NCBI GenBank assembly: GCA_028291515.1
Contig: JAQGHU010000102.1
Location: forward strand, 62,001-126,000
DNA: 64,000 bases
DNA from: Schlesneria sp.
Lineage (GTDB): Bacteria > Planctomycetota > Planctomycetia > Planctomycetales > Planctomycetaceae
Direction of reading: 5' to 3'
Part shown: piece by piece, positions 35,850 to 45,562 of the stretch
Layout: every line of letters begins with the position of its first letter
Position numbering within the stretch: the first letter of the stretch is position 1
Translations under genes and position numbers: made by a program
The notes under the pieces: model-generated
Told to the model about the DNA's origin: nothing
Seen by the model: the letters and a program-made list of their open reading frames with translations, nothing else
Database searches by the model: none

Positions 35850-36053
35850 ATGCTGGTACTTTCTCGGAAACCTGGTGAGAAGATTTTGATTGGCGAGGAT
35901 GTCACGGTCACGATCGTTCGCATTGGGCCGAACACCGTACGCATCGGTATCGAAGCTCCTCGCGCGATGAATATCGTTCGCGAAGAGTTGTGCGAACCTG
36001 CGGGACACTGTGAACGAGTCATTGAAGTCCATACGGACGAAGAACTGGCATAA
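35850..36053 (+). CDS. csrA: Carbon storage regulator CsrA
   Basis: CsrA is a 67-residue dimeric RNA-binding protein that represses or stabilises mRNAs by binding GGA motifs near ribosome sites. The start MLVLSRKPGEKILIG and the internal VRIGIEAP are the family hallmarks; the RNA-contacting Leu4, Arg6 and Arg residue near position 45 are present. The C-terminus is slightly longer than in Escherichia coli (61). An AAAGGGG run lies just before the ATG. A strong terminator follows. No flagellar gene or fliW is next to it in this window. Confidence 0.97.
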   Translation: MLVLSRKPGEKILIGEDVTVTIVRIGPNTVRIGIEAPRAMNIVREELCEPAGHCERVIEVHTDEELA

Positions 36054-37612: not shown

Positions 37613-37668
37613 CACACTAAGCCAATTCCACGAACTCAGTGCCCGACGGATTTCTCGCTGGAAGTCTC

Positions 37669-40110
37669 ATGAAACTACTCCTCCGATTCGCGATGCTGTC
37701 TCTGACGCTGTCCGCGAGCAGTCAAGTATCTGCTTCCGATGGCCTGAACATACTTCCCGCAACCGTCCATCTGACGGGGCCCGAATCGCGACAAACATTG
37801 ATCGTTGAATCGACCGAGAGCGGTTACGCGACGGGGCAGGTTCGTGAGGTCAAGTTTTCATCTGACAACGAAAACGTCGCCAAGATCATCGACAGCGAGA
37901 TCATCCCCACCGGAAATGGAGTCGCGACGATTACAGTCACCAGCGGCGGTCGAACAGCCAGTATGAAAGTTACGGTCGATAAGTTCGATGTTGCTCATCA
38001 GTGGACCTTTCGCAACCACGTGCAATCGGTCCTTTCAAAAACAGGATGCAATTCTGGTGCGTGTCATGGAGCTGCTGCCGGGAAGAACGGATTTAAACTT
38101 TCACTTCGCGGATACGATCCCGAGGCGGACTTTTTTTCCATCACTCGACAGGCGCGCGGACGAAGGGTGGTTCCAGACGATCCGGGACGCAGCCTGATTC
38201 TGACGAAGCCGACCGGGATGATTCCCCATAAGGGGGGCGTCCGTTTCGCAGAAGATTCGCACGAGTTTCATGTCATCGCGGAATGGCTCGCTCAAGGCCA
38301 ACAAGGCCCTGCGGCAAACGATGCCAAGATCTCTCATCTCACGATTCTACCTGAAAATGCACGCCTCGTTCCTGGCACAGAGCAGCAACTGATTGTTCAA
38401 GCCCATTTCACCGACGGCCACACCGAAGATGTGACTCGCTGGGCGAAATACACATCAACCAACCACACGGTTTGCCAAGTCAATGAAACTGGGTTCATCA
38501 AGGTCACCGGAAGCGGTGAAGGAGCGGTCGTCGCGTGGTATTTGGCTCAGAACGCCACCGCCACAATCACGGTCCCGTACATCCAACAAGTTCGTGCCGC
38601 AGCTTTCACCGAAGCAAGACGGGCCAATTTCATTGACGAGTTCGTTCTGGAAAAGCTCGCAGCTCTTAATATCCCGCCGTCAGCAAGGTCCGATGACAGC
38701 GAATTCGTGCGGCGTATTTACCTCGACACGATTGGCATGCTGCCGACGATCGACGAGTCACGAGCATTTCTGGAAGACACAGATCCGGAAAAACGCCTGA
38801 AACTAATCGAGCAATTGCTGGCGCGACCCGAGTTTGTGGATTACTGGGCGTACCAATGGTCCGATCTGCTGCTCCTGACGGGGAATCGCCTGCGACCGCA
38901 AGCCGTCAAATCTTACTACCAATGGATTCGTGAGCGGGTCGCGAACAATGTTCCGTGGGACGAATTTGCCCGAGGTGTCATGCTGGCCAAGGGGAGCACG
39001 TTCGATAACGGCGCGGCGAACTTCTATGCCTTGCACCAGGATCCACAAGACATGGTGGAAACCACGTCGATGGCATTCCTCGGCATGTCCATCCAATGCG
39101 CCCATTGTCATGACCACCCCAATGAGAAGTGGACCAACGATGATTACTACGGGATGGTCAGCTTGTTTGCTCGCGTTCGAGGCAAAGGCTGGGGAGGCGA
39201 TTTCCGCGGCGGCGATGGAAATCGAGTGATCTTTGTCGACGACCAGGGGGAAGTGCTGCAGCCGCGCACAGGCAAACCACAACCACCGAAGCCTCTGGAT
39301 GGTGAGCCGATTTCATTTGATGGCTCCGAGGATCGTCGCGAACACCTGGCTCGCTGGCTGACATCTCCACAGAACCCTTACTTCGCCAAGGCCATCGTCA
39401 ATCGAGTCTGGGCCAACTACATGGGCAAAGGATTAGTCGAGAGTATCGATGACATTCGCCAGACGAACCCCGCCAGTAATGAGAAACTGTTCGCCCACCT
39501 CGCCGAGCAACTCGTGGAAAACAAGTACGATCTGAAATGGCTCATGAGAACCATCCTGCAGTCAGAGGCCTATCAGCGGTCACATCAGACCACAAAAGAG
39601 AACATCGGCGATCAGCGATTTTATGCTCATGCGTATCCACGACGGCTGAAGGCCGAAGTCTTGCTGGACGCCATCTCGCAAGTGACGGCCAGTCCCACTG
39701 CCTTCAAAGACCAGCCTGCAGGCACGCGCGCCCTGCAATTGCCCGATTCGAGTATTACCTCTTATTTTCTTGATGCATTCGGTCGTCCAGAGCGATTGCT
39801 GACATGCACTTGCGAACGATCTGATGAACCAAGCATGACTCAAGTGCTGCATCTGACGAATGGGAAAACGATCCAGGAAAAGATCGAAGCCAAAGAAGGG
39901 CGCATTACGCAACTAGTTAGCACGGGCGCGTCGTCAGCAGAGATCATTGATAATGCTTACTTGGCTGCGCTATCTCGACGTCCCACCGACGGAGAACAAT
40001 CGCGACTCTCTGCGATCCTCGACGAAACCGCCGACTCTGAAAAACGTCAGGTCATCGAAGACTTGTTCTGGAGCATCCTGACGTCAAAAGAATTCTTGTT
40101 TCAACACTAG
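37669..40110 (+). CDS. DUF1549/DUF1553 exported protein with c-type haem site and Ig-like domains
   Basis: This is an 813-residue secreted protein with a signal peptide (MKLLLRFAMLSLTLSASSQVSA). The first part reads as bacterial Ig-like (BIG2) beta-sandwich domains (VKFSSDNENVAKI, ATITVTSGG), and a second such module lies near 230-320. A SKTGCNSGACHG segment resembles the planctomycete cytochrome-like domain but is CX4CH. DUF1549 follows (DEFVLEKL, RRIYLDTIGMLPT), with a proper CxxCH haem motif (QCAHCHDHP), then DUF1553 (NRVWANYMGKGLVE, YPRRLKAEVLLDAI). It probably works with the upstream DUF1501 protein in the periplasm. The electron partner and substrate are unknown. The ATG at 37669 is chosen to give a proper signal peptide. 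Confidence 0.9.
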   Translation: MKLLLRFAMLSLTLSASSQVSASDGLNILPATVHLTGPESRQTLIVESTESGYATGQVREVKFSSDNENVAKIIDSEIIPTGNGVATITVTSGGRTASMKVTVDKFDVAHQWTFRNHVQSVLSKTGCNSGACHGAAAGKNGFKLSLRGYDPEADFFSITRQARGRRVVPDDPGRSLILTKPTGMIPHKGGVRFAEDSHEFHVIAEWLAQGQQGPAANDAKISHLTILPENARLVPGTEQQLIVQAHFTDGHTEDVTRWAKYTSTNHTVCQVNETGFIKVTGSGEGAVVAWYLAQNATATITVPYIQQVRAAAFTEARRANFIDEFVLEKLAALNIPPSARSDDSEFVRRIYLDTIGMLPTIDESRAFLEDTDPEKRLKLIEQLLARPEFVDYWAYQWSDLLLLTGNRLRPQAVKSYYQWIRERVANNVPWDEFARGVMLAKGSTFDNGAANFYALHQDPQDMVETTSMAFLGMSIQCAHCHDHPNEKWTNDDYYGMVSLFARVRGKGWGGDFRGGDGNRVIFVDDQGEVLQPRTGKPQPPKPLDGEPISFDGSEDRREHLARWLTSPQNPYFAKAIVNRVWANYMGKGLVESIDDIRQTNPASNEKLFAHLAEQLVENKYDLKWLMRTILQSEAYQRSHQTTKENIGDQRFYAHAYPRRLKAEVLLDAISQVTASPTAFKDQPAGTRALQLPDSSITSYFLDAFGRPERLLTCTCERSDEPSMTQVLHLTNGKTIQEKIEAKEGRITQLVSTGASSAEIIDNAYLAALSRRPTDGEQSRLSAILDETADSEKRQVIEDLFWSILTSKEFLFQH

Positions 40111-40487
40111 TGCTGGCGTTTCTGACTGTCGGGTCGGTTCACATCGAATCCACAACAAAACAGGCTCTTTCGCTCCTGCTTATCCGCTCCGGCAAATCTG
40201 GCCGAATGTGGGCAGTCTACCCCATCCATTCAAAGCATTTTTTCGTTGCGATCGCGATAACTTGACAATTTGTCGAAACCGTCAAGGCTTGACTTGCCGA
40301 TGAATCTGTGCTTCGGTCGCCTCCCCTCTCATCCTTCCAACCTACGCAGTATGAGATAGGAGAAATCCAAAGGCGAAGGGAACGAAGAGAAGTGTCGCGA
40401 CGAGTTACGTCATCGCGACACCCTCAATGATGCCAAAGTTGCGGAACCAGGACTTTCGACAATCCTTTGTTGAGTAACATTTTCCGC
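40111..40487. other. Intergenic gap with one perfect 9-bp hairpin
   Basis: No gene is recognisable here. GTGTCGCGA at 40392-40400 and TCGCGACAC at 40413-40421 form a perfect 9-bp stem with a 12-nt loop, without a T tract. It could be a processed RNA element, a protein-binding palindrome or a decayed terminator for the DUF1553 gene. Confidence 0.35.
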
Positions 40488-40516
40488 TTGACGCATTTTT
40501 TGAAGACCTCTAGGAT
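40488..40516 (+). promoter_or_regulatory. Candidate sigma-70 promoter for the Lys/Ala-rich peptide
   Basis: TTGACG at 40488-40493 and TAGGAT at 40511-40516 are separated by exactly 17 bp. The predicted start point near 40523 leaves an untranslated leader of about 145 nt. The leader contains a small hairpin, CACTCC at 40556-40561 with GGAGTG at 40569-40574. This is a sequence match only. Confidence 0.5.
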
Positions 40517-40668
40517 CACCTGCGTGATTGCTGCGGTAACTTAGTTTGAAGAGATCACTCCCCACTCAGGAGTGTCGCACTTTTGAGTCGCCTCTGCTTT
40601 CGGGTGCCAGAGAGGACGACAGTTCAGGACACCGGTGCCCGATGTTTTTTTCCAAAGGAGCCACGGAT

Positions 40669-40761
40669 ATGGCCGCGAAAAAAGAAGTTGCTGCTAAGAA
40701 GGTCGAAGCCAAGAAGCCTGCTAAGTCTGCAAAGGCTAAGCCAGCTGCCAAGAAGAAGTAA
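40669..40761 (+). CDS. 30-residue Lys/Ala-rich basic peptide
   Basis: The peptide contains only Met, Ala, Lys, Glu, Val, Pro and Ser, with 13 Lys, in AAKK/AKPAAKKK blocks like the C-terminal tails of histone H1-like and HU-like proteins. An AAGGAG ribosome binding site lies 8 nt before the ATG, one of the best in this window, which is notable because most genes here have a weak one. The unit has its own promoter-like sequence and terminator. I do not recognise a named family; nucleic-acid binding or chromosome compaction is plausible from charge, but a short leader peptide or an RNA gene with a chance frame is the alternative. The frame is open to 40546, but that part lacks this composition. 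Confidence 0.6.
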   Translation: MAAKKEVAAKKVEAKKPAKSAKAKPAAKKK

Positions 40762-40787
40762 ATTTCATTGAGCGAAAGCTCTTTGAT

Positions 40788-40823
40788 AAACAGGCTGGAT
40801 CTCACCCATTCAGCCTGTTTTTA
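40788..40823 (+). terminator. Rho-independent terminator after the Lys/Ala-rich peptide
   Basis: The stem AAACAGGCTG (40788-40797) pairs with CAGCCTGTTT (40811-40820) around a 13-nt loop, and the T run continues as TTTTTATTCTTT. It starts 26 bp after the peptide stop. It also sits before the stop of the converging DUF2617-like gene, so it may serve both. Confidence 0.85.
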
Positions 40824-40840
40824 TTCTTTGGCTAGAAAAT

Positions 40841-45489: not shown

Positions 45490-45562
<73 letters not shown>

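Follow-up and report, generated by a model that had tools for sequence, protein, structure and literature searches.

The closest described counterparts of the protein encoded by the locus reported here are the histone H1-like protein Hc2 of chlamydiae and BpH1 of Bordetella (PF07382, NF038053), both of which consist of foldless Lys-rich repeats with a repeat-varied length. The length of Hc2 differs with the number of its repeats, and binding to both DNA and RNA has been reported for it (PMC2848022). The longer members of the protein family described below fit this pattern. By contrast, the 30-residue peptide that led to the family holds a single copy of the repeated element, and the forms of 24–35 residues are far shorter than the 165–237 residues of Hc2. 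To our knowledge, Hc2 has no pseudoknot leader. The KPAA tails of AlgP and PhaF from Pseudomonas contain Lys/Pro/Ala repeats like those found here; however, they are C-terminal tails attached to another domain, whereas the repeats described here make up the whole protein. One report describes in vitro DNA binding by peptides of KPAA repeats and finds the H1-like AlgP lying over the nucleoid when polyphosphate kinases are missing from the cells (PMC9239181).

Counterparts of the RNA that precedes the gene are known as well. The H-type pseudoknot of Escherichia coli rpsO, which encodes S15, controls a single gene and overlaps the ribosome site, whereas the pseudoknot described here ends 19–31 nt before the start codon. 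The mRNAs of the hcnA type, bound by CsrA or RsmE, carry ACGGAU in the loop of a ribosome-site hairpin, as is the case here; they differ in that here a pseudoknot lies upstream and GGA is not enriched upstream, and CsrA is a candidate binder of the leaders. The Rhodopirellula-1 motif, a structured RNA from Planctomycetes and Proteobacteria in the part of the publication available (PMC2864571), could be the same RNA as the leader. No description of the unit was found among the matches listed for planctomycete H1-like and nucleoid proteins, structured RNAs and CsrA, a search of mostly non-subscription papers, or among those listed for bacterial H1-like repeats.

Organization of the locus and its conservation in the genus

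The locus is located in a window of 64,000 nucleotides, which is the whole stretch of Schlesneria sp. DNA that was analysed. Its parts are as follows.

40488–40516, plus strand: promoter with TTGACG (40488–40493), a 17-nt spacer and TAGGAT (40511–40516), recognized by pattern match and conservation in the genus
40523–40668, plus strand: 5′ leader of about 146 nt, its start predicted 6–7 nt past the −10 element, described by covariance models R1 and R2
40556–40574, plus strand: hairpin P1, mainly a genus-level element, −7.1 kcal/mol
40587–40620, plus strand: hairpin P2 with strands at about 40587–40595 and 40609–40620, −12.8 kcal/mol
40602–40608, plus strand: 5′ strand of P3, GGGTGCC, in the P2 loop, pairing with 40634–40640
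40634–40640, plus strand: 3′ strand of P3, GGTGCCC, 28 nt before the ATG, which closes the pseudoknot by pairing with the P2 loop
40655–40673, plus strand: ribosome-site-to-start block AAGGAGCCACGGATATGGC, with AAGGAG at 40655–40660, 8 nt before the ATG at 40669
40669–40761, plus strand: ORF MAAKKEVAAKKVEAKKPAKSAKAKPAAKKK for a 30-residue H1-like peptide, supported by a frame preserved at all 14 genus loci, pN/pS and a common motif
40788–40828, plus strand: intrinsic terminator, a hairpin (40788–40820) with a T-rich tail, −16.7 kcal/mol, z −6.1

The original prediction was that the gene forms a self-contained unit and encodes a Lys/Ala peptide that resembles the tails of histone H1 or HU and has no folded domain. 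This description has been borne out, and the promoter, ribosome site, ORF and terminator are all located where they had been placed; however, the 30 residues include 12 Lys, not 13, together with 10 Ala and 2 Glu. The unit had also been considered so tight that chance was unlikely. Taken singly, the promoter matches (one found, 1.2 expected) and terminator matches (two found, 2.3 expected) are at the level of chance, and therefore the case for the unit rests on comparison, which provides it through conservation in the genus. The terminator is strong with respect to the stability of its hairpin (z −6.1) and not with respect to its match count. The fold of the whole transcript is barely above that of shuffled sequences (z −1.5; 5 of 100 as good), and 10 of 200 shuffles of P2 fold as well as the native hairpin at −12.8 kcal/mol.

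A DNA search with 40480–40830 identified the leader and peptide together in 14 of the 15 genomes of the genus, that of the studied organism included; the sole genome without the unit is 89% complete and divided into 1,560 contigs. The frame, rich in Lys and Ala (and Pro and Thr), is open in all 14 loci, where it encodes 30–67 residues despite many indels, and ends in AAGTAA, or AAATAA in L013. The median pN/pS over 78 pairs of 13 genus sequences is 0.27, with a maximum of 0.69. One pair (L008 and L011) differs by five synonymous changes and no others, and another (L001 and L003) by four synonymous and two other changes. The low pN/pS, determined in the synonymous versus non-synonymous comparison that had been proposed as a refuting test, indicates that the peptide is under selection. 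The opposite pattern, an RNA that is kept while the frame is lost, which would have refuted the original prediction, was not seen, because frame and RNA are conserved together in the 14 genomes. The low complexity of the peptide and its lack of a folded domain would be in keeping with an ORF that lies by chance on a small RNA that is itself conserved. However, the frame open at every genus locus, the synonymous bias, the ribosome site and the protein motif common to relatives make this extremely improbable, and the conservation of the frame refutes it as far as comparison allows.

The control elements are conserved as well. The −35 TTGAC, the −10 TA..AT and the block AAGGAGCCA.GGA are invariant across the 14 loci, and the alignment, inspected by eye, indicates that the terminator stem is preserved by paired changes. 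Of the 13 genomes searched in the genus, 12 contain one copy each of the pattern AGGAGCCAN{1,2}GGAN{1,2}ATGGC, which was derived from these same loci; the reversed control pattern had no matches. Among 23 loci, most with flanks of just ~1.5 kb, only L002 and L005 have an ORF in common with the 34–47.5 kb region of the window; since the neighbours in these short flanks are mostly unshared, the unit stands alone.

The surroundings of the unit include several further features. Upstream of the −35 element (window 40437–40487), AGTTGCGGAA and a TTCCGC that directly precedes TTGACG show partial conservation across the 14 genus loci, and these letters are possibly a regulator site or an upstream promoter element. 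A 14-pair inverted repeat at 40390–40423, between a PSD1/PSCyt2 gene (37639–40110) and the promoter, is terminator-like on the minus strand. The only tRNA gene found in the window, that of a tRNA-Lys with anticodon ttt (45490–45562, minus strand), is 4.7 kb from the Lys-rich gene, which is probably a coincidence.

A family of Lys-rich proteins and the distribution of its leader

Three things extend beyond what had been predicted: a protein family of 24–235 residues, a covarying pseudoknot leader and a conserved CsrA-like block from the ribosome site to the start codon. The search of relatives that had been suggested succeeds with DNA and with RNA models, whereas a protein search with the 30-mer is nearly blind. 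At E 1 it matched 4 of 81 genomes of the taxonomic family, including that of the organism itself, and it found nothing certain beyond that genome (three matches with E 0.16–0.85).

Covariance model R1 detected the leader in 55 of 170 genomes and 25 of 58 genera of the taxonomic family at E 0.1; the other 33 genera were without a match under strict filters. Twelve weak R1 rows were left out (G158, G076, G097, G028 and eight in G050; E 0.04–0.065). A Lys-rich ORF directly follows the leader in all 16 R1 loci outside the genus and in 17 of 20 further R1 loci, six of which overlap with a set of named genomes. A scan of the named genomes with the block pattern returned 61 stretches, of which 27 precede a Lys-rich ORF, all 27 in records with planctomycete names; the carriers include Pirellulales MAGs, Aeoliella straminimaris and a Blastopirellula MAG. 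The broader model R2 matched 87 of 397 genomes and 47 of 185 genera of the class Planctomycetia at E 0.01, with no match in 138 genera under strict filters. Because most genera are without a match, the unit is either not universal or diverges past the reach of the models.

The leader is closely associated with one type of gene, which follows 42 of the 49 class matches retrieved. Six of the seven misses (L198, L201–L204 and L208) are weak, with E 3.3e-4 to 6.2e-3; the seventh is L180. The leader of L180 is a good match (E 2.4e-6) and is followed by an Arg-rich ORF of 52 residues from outside the protein family. Leader matches from the family search that lack a Lys-rich gene are L124, L132 and L133. 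In L132 and L133, both from genus g53, CGGAGCCACGGACG-ATG precedes a 22-residue ORF, MAAKS[SP]A[PA]FPEELQHCHRSGRV, and the block alone matched the leader model; this is possibly a decayed copy. A search of 392 genomes of the phylum at E 0.001 returned a single match outside the class (G467), which lies in AT-rich DNA before an ORF of 13 residues that is not Lys-rich and was taken as a chance match. No Rfam 15 family matched the leader at the gathering score in the window, in the locus searched at a low threshold or in ten relatives.

The proteins encoded behind the leader are Lys-rich, of low complexity and H1-like, and range from 24 (L129) and 26 (L193) to 235 residues (L049). The counts of motifs and pseudoknots given below were obtained after removal of the non-family ORFs L059, L062, L066, L080, L090, L095, L098 and L100, of rows that duplicate another in the 80 nt upstream (such as L002, L050, L125 and L127) and of the seven class misses. 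Proteins that end at contig edges (L051, L067 and L083) and L189 were retained in the protein counts. The Lys-rich ORF of L189 ends after 15 codons and looks truncated next to the 80–82 codons of its close relatives L171, L173 and L174.

The motif [KR][ST][APTS]K[AKST][KR] is present in 73 of the 89 distinct proteins (mean of 200 residue shuffles 24.9, maximum 35) and in 31 of the 40 proteins of up to 50 residues (shuffled mean 5.0, maximum 13). The SPKK-like [ST]PK[AK] occurs in 48 of the 89 (shuffled mean 13.5, maximum 24). Although both patterns, KSxKAK and SPKK-like, were composed after the proteins had been viewed, a KS[A/T/P]KAK or SPKK-type motif is thus common to the family far above what composition provides. 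Across the 89 proteins the occurrences add up to 189, of which the 30-residue peptide contributes one, KSAKAK.

Five proteins were scanned with Pfam, and no domain reached its cut-off. The HC2 model (PF07382) had no match to the 30-residue peptide, and it scored 21.1 and 21.2 bits, below the cut-off of 40 bits, with two of four longer members. NCBIfam NF038053 likewise matched two of the longer members, at best with 21.7 bits, below its cut-off of 80, and did not match the peptide either. Elsewhere in the genomes, at a threshold of E 0.001, the HC2 model detected proteins in 9 of 21 relatives, three of them above the cut-off, and in 5 of 13 within the genus; it had no match in the organism's own genome at this threshold. 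The protein family is not the sole H1-like candidate in these bacteria.

At the level of sequence, these comparisons establish that the frame is conserved as a protein and belongs to a Lys-rich family of Planctomycetia with a pseudoknot leader. The peptide is expected to be disordered and probably binds nucleic acid, most likely DNA. It would do so through its charge (12 Lys against 2 Glu) and the KSxKAK- and SPKK-type motifs, and would help to condense the nucleoid, while the number of repeats would set the reach or affinity of the protein. Of the three roles originally proposed, that of a free chromosome-binding peptide appears to fit best, because this leader also precedes long H1-like repeat proteins that contain SPKK-type motifs in relatives; an RNA chaperone-like peptide and an mRNA-borne regulator fit less well. 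A foldless polycation of 30 residues without obvious specificity could equally bind RNA or polyphosphate, and might act on RNA, ribosomes or polyphosphate instead of DNA, as an RNA chaperone or an organiser of polyphosphate or storage granules. SPKK motifs are binders of the DNA minor groove, and their recurrence among the relatives speaks against such a function, as does the literature, in its available parts, by joining SPKK, the minor groove and histone H1. Precedents are the RNA binding and translational repression reported for Hc2 (PMC2848022) and the localization of AlgP to polyphosphate granules (PMC9239181). Action on targets other than DNA is considered quite unlikely.

The pseudoknot in the leader

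Leaders from the genus contain four helices, P0, P1, P2 and P3, the last of which is formed by GGGURCC in the loop of P2 and a downstream GGYRCCC. In the 14 genus sequences, P3 is paired in 100% of the cells of the alignment, and P1 in 90.0%, although two subclades are shifted relative to each other in this alignment. P0 and P1 are doubtful outside the genus: alignment A2, made to fit both helices, has them paired in 79.7% and 91.5% of its lettered cells, respectively, but many of its rows are gapped at these places. P2 and P3 persist. P2 covaries in the same family alignment, which was fitted to this helix as well.

Evidence for P3 is provided by alignment A4 with its 87 leaders; from the 89 distinct ones, L011 and L012 were omitted as near copies, and L169 replaced L069. 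The model that produced A4 included the pairs of P2 and excluded those of P3, the usual letters of P3 being known to it. P3 is paired in 95.6% of 589 cells, 73 of which are doubly changed, counted as sequences and not as independent events. All seven pairs have changes on both sides, and none of 500 shuffles reached any of five measures. Registers slid from the true one are paired in 34–56%. The variants of P3 include GGGTGCC/GGTGCCC, CGAGTGCC/GGCACTCG, CGAGCACC/GGTGCTCG, GGATGCC/GGTATCC, TTGGGTC/GACCCAA, TGATGCCC/GGGCATCG and AGCGCCCA/TGGGCGCT. The family alignment agrees less strongly, with 95.1% of 305 cells paired and three of seven pairs doubly changed.

A direct scan for pseudoknots led to the same structure in most leaders of two sets. 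In one set, 37 of 51 leaders beat all 50 of their dinucleotide shuffles. Among leaders from the class search, 28 of 42 did so, four of the 42 being repeats from the set of 51; the mean score of the 42 is 39.0, versus 22.9 for the shuffles. These numbers supersede an earlier, looser scan, in which 34 of 62 rows, non-family ORFs among them, beat all 20 shuffles. Detection was weak or failed for L114, L116, L128, L052 and L054 in the first set and for L161, L176, L178, L181 and L196 in the second. The scan gave no structure for L114 and another structure for L116 and L128, although inspection by eye reveals a shorter pairing, GGTGC/GCACC, in these leaders. The pseudoknot of the Schlesneria locus is not significant by itself, as 3 of 50 shuffles are as good, and is supported by comparison only. 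Judged by covariation, the leader is an H-type pseudoknot in most members of the family, and, with few exceptions, the 3′ strand of P3 ends 19–31 nt upstream of the start codon. This position corresponds approximately to the upstream edge of the initiating 30S subunit.

It is likely, on these comparative grounds, that the leader controls translation, and it would thereby govern the synthesis of a sticky protein. A conserved pseudoknot near a ribosome site is also what a small-molecule riboswitch would present. However, the alignments of 46 sequences (A3) and, as inspected by eye, of 87 sequences (A4) contain no conserved unpaired pocket: the invariant and nearly invariant letters are confined to P3 or to the ribosome-site block, with more letters fixed within the genus. 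The leader matches no Rfam family, and a riboswitch is very unlikely. Visual inspection revealed no alternative pairing that would hide the ribosome site. Since 5′ structures can protect mRNA, the leader might stabilise the transcript of a highly expressed gene or enhance its translation without any regulation, which would agree with the conservation of both promoter and terminator in the genus. A covarying pseudoknot that is found across the class, at a nearly fixed distance and almost exclusively before one type of gene exceeds the needs of protection, and a structure free of regulation is an unlikely explanation.

The ribosome-site block, candidate regulators and significance

The segment between the ribosome site and the start codon, AAGGAGCCA[A]CGGA[T]TATGGC, is almost fixed across the leaders, which is unusual for a spacer. 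Within the block at 40655–40673, GCCA and TGGC can close a loop that holds CGGATA. A GGA is present in the spacer of 75 of 89 leaders, compared with 35 of 159 control ORFs (mechanically selected, at least 120 residues long and with a GGAG site, from the same DNA), a count that is partly built in because the block belonged to the search pattern and models; of the 38 distinct leaders found through the class search alone, 27 contain it. ANGGA occurs in 70 of the 89 spacers. According to predicted folds, the GGA is unpaired within a small closed loop in 66 of the 75 leaders, typically with GCCA/UGGC around CGGAUA. Further upstream, GGA is not enriched (123 occurrences, below the shuffled mean of 155.6) and ANGGA occurs 40 times (shuffled mean 33.4, maximum 47); in this respect the leaders are unlike CsrA targets with multiple sites.

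In the part of the source available, CsrA binds A(N)GGA in a ribosome-site hairpin and is conserved in Planctomycetes (PMC10729762). The leaders present A(N)GGA in the loop of such a hairpin, with the bias of their selection. The ACGGAT of the block has the same letters as the hcnA ribosome-site hexaloop ACGGAU, which is bound by RsmE with an approximately tenfold lower affinity when extra letters separate loop and stem, as described in the accessible part of the study (PMC4005645). A csrA gene is located at 35850–36053 of the window (plus strand). CsrA is multi-copy in these bacteria, with 6–17 matches per genome in all 27 planctomycete genomes tested and 10 in that of the organism itself; csrA is also present in all seven tested genomes without a leader match in the R2 search, which, like the low number of GGA upstream, counts against CsrA.

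The block contains two GGA motifs, one of them in the hairpin loop, and a CsrA-type repressor bound there could cover the ribosome site; the stem of this hairpin would include the UG of the start codon. CsrA is a tentative candidate for the regulator of the leader. The other likely regulator would be the peptide itself, acting by feedback on the pseudoknot: free H1-like peptide would bind the pseudoknot and block initiation, such that synthesis stops once the DNA is saturated. The leader is almost exclusive to Lys-rich H1-like genes, which is consistent with such autogenous control. In the wide alignments, the base pairs covary and the letters that are unpaired and not part of the ribosome-site block are variable, a pattern to be expected if the binding protein recognizes shape and charge. 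However, the length and composition of the peptide vary widely between species, whereas the architecture of the RNA is constant, and autogenous control is regarded as somewhat unlikely.

The explanation preferred here, with fair probability, is that the locus is a single-copy, self-contained gene for a minimal nucleoid-binding H1-like peptide, the translation of which is set by its leader, possibly through CsrA or feedback. A broader proposal, put forward with more reserve, is that a class-wide cis-regulatory pseudoknot couples the translation of a linker-histone analogue to the state of the nucleoid, through repressors of the CsrA type or free peptide.

Condensed nucleoids are a trait of planctomycetes. 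A tomographic study of Gemmata from 2012 reported, in its available part, no histone homologue and only HU proteins, and considered that the identity of the particles on the DNA needs further study (PMC3440768). If the broader proposal is true, the family would be a candidate for the unknown condensing agent of planctomycete nucleoids, and its members of down to 24 residues would represent the smallest RNA-regulated chromosome-packing protein. We know of no smaller one. The family is easily missed, because its proteins are short, of low complexity and nearly invisible to protein searches; however, it can be found through its RNA, and the leader thus provides a handle for finding and naming these genes. 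The lengths of 24–235 residues offer a natural series of repeat numbers, and the leader makes it possible to test directly whether bacteria set the dose of a chromatin protein at the level of its mRNA. The restriction of the leader, with few exceptions, to such genes hints at a chromosome-packing protein that is controlled through its mRNA.
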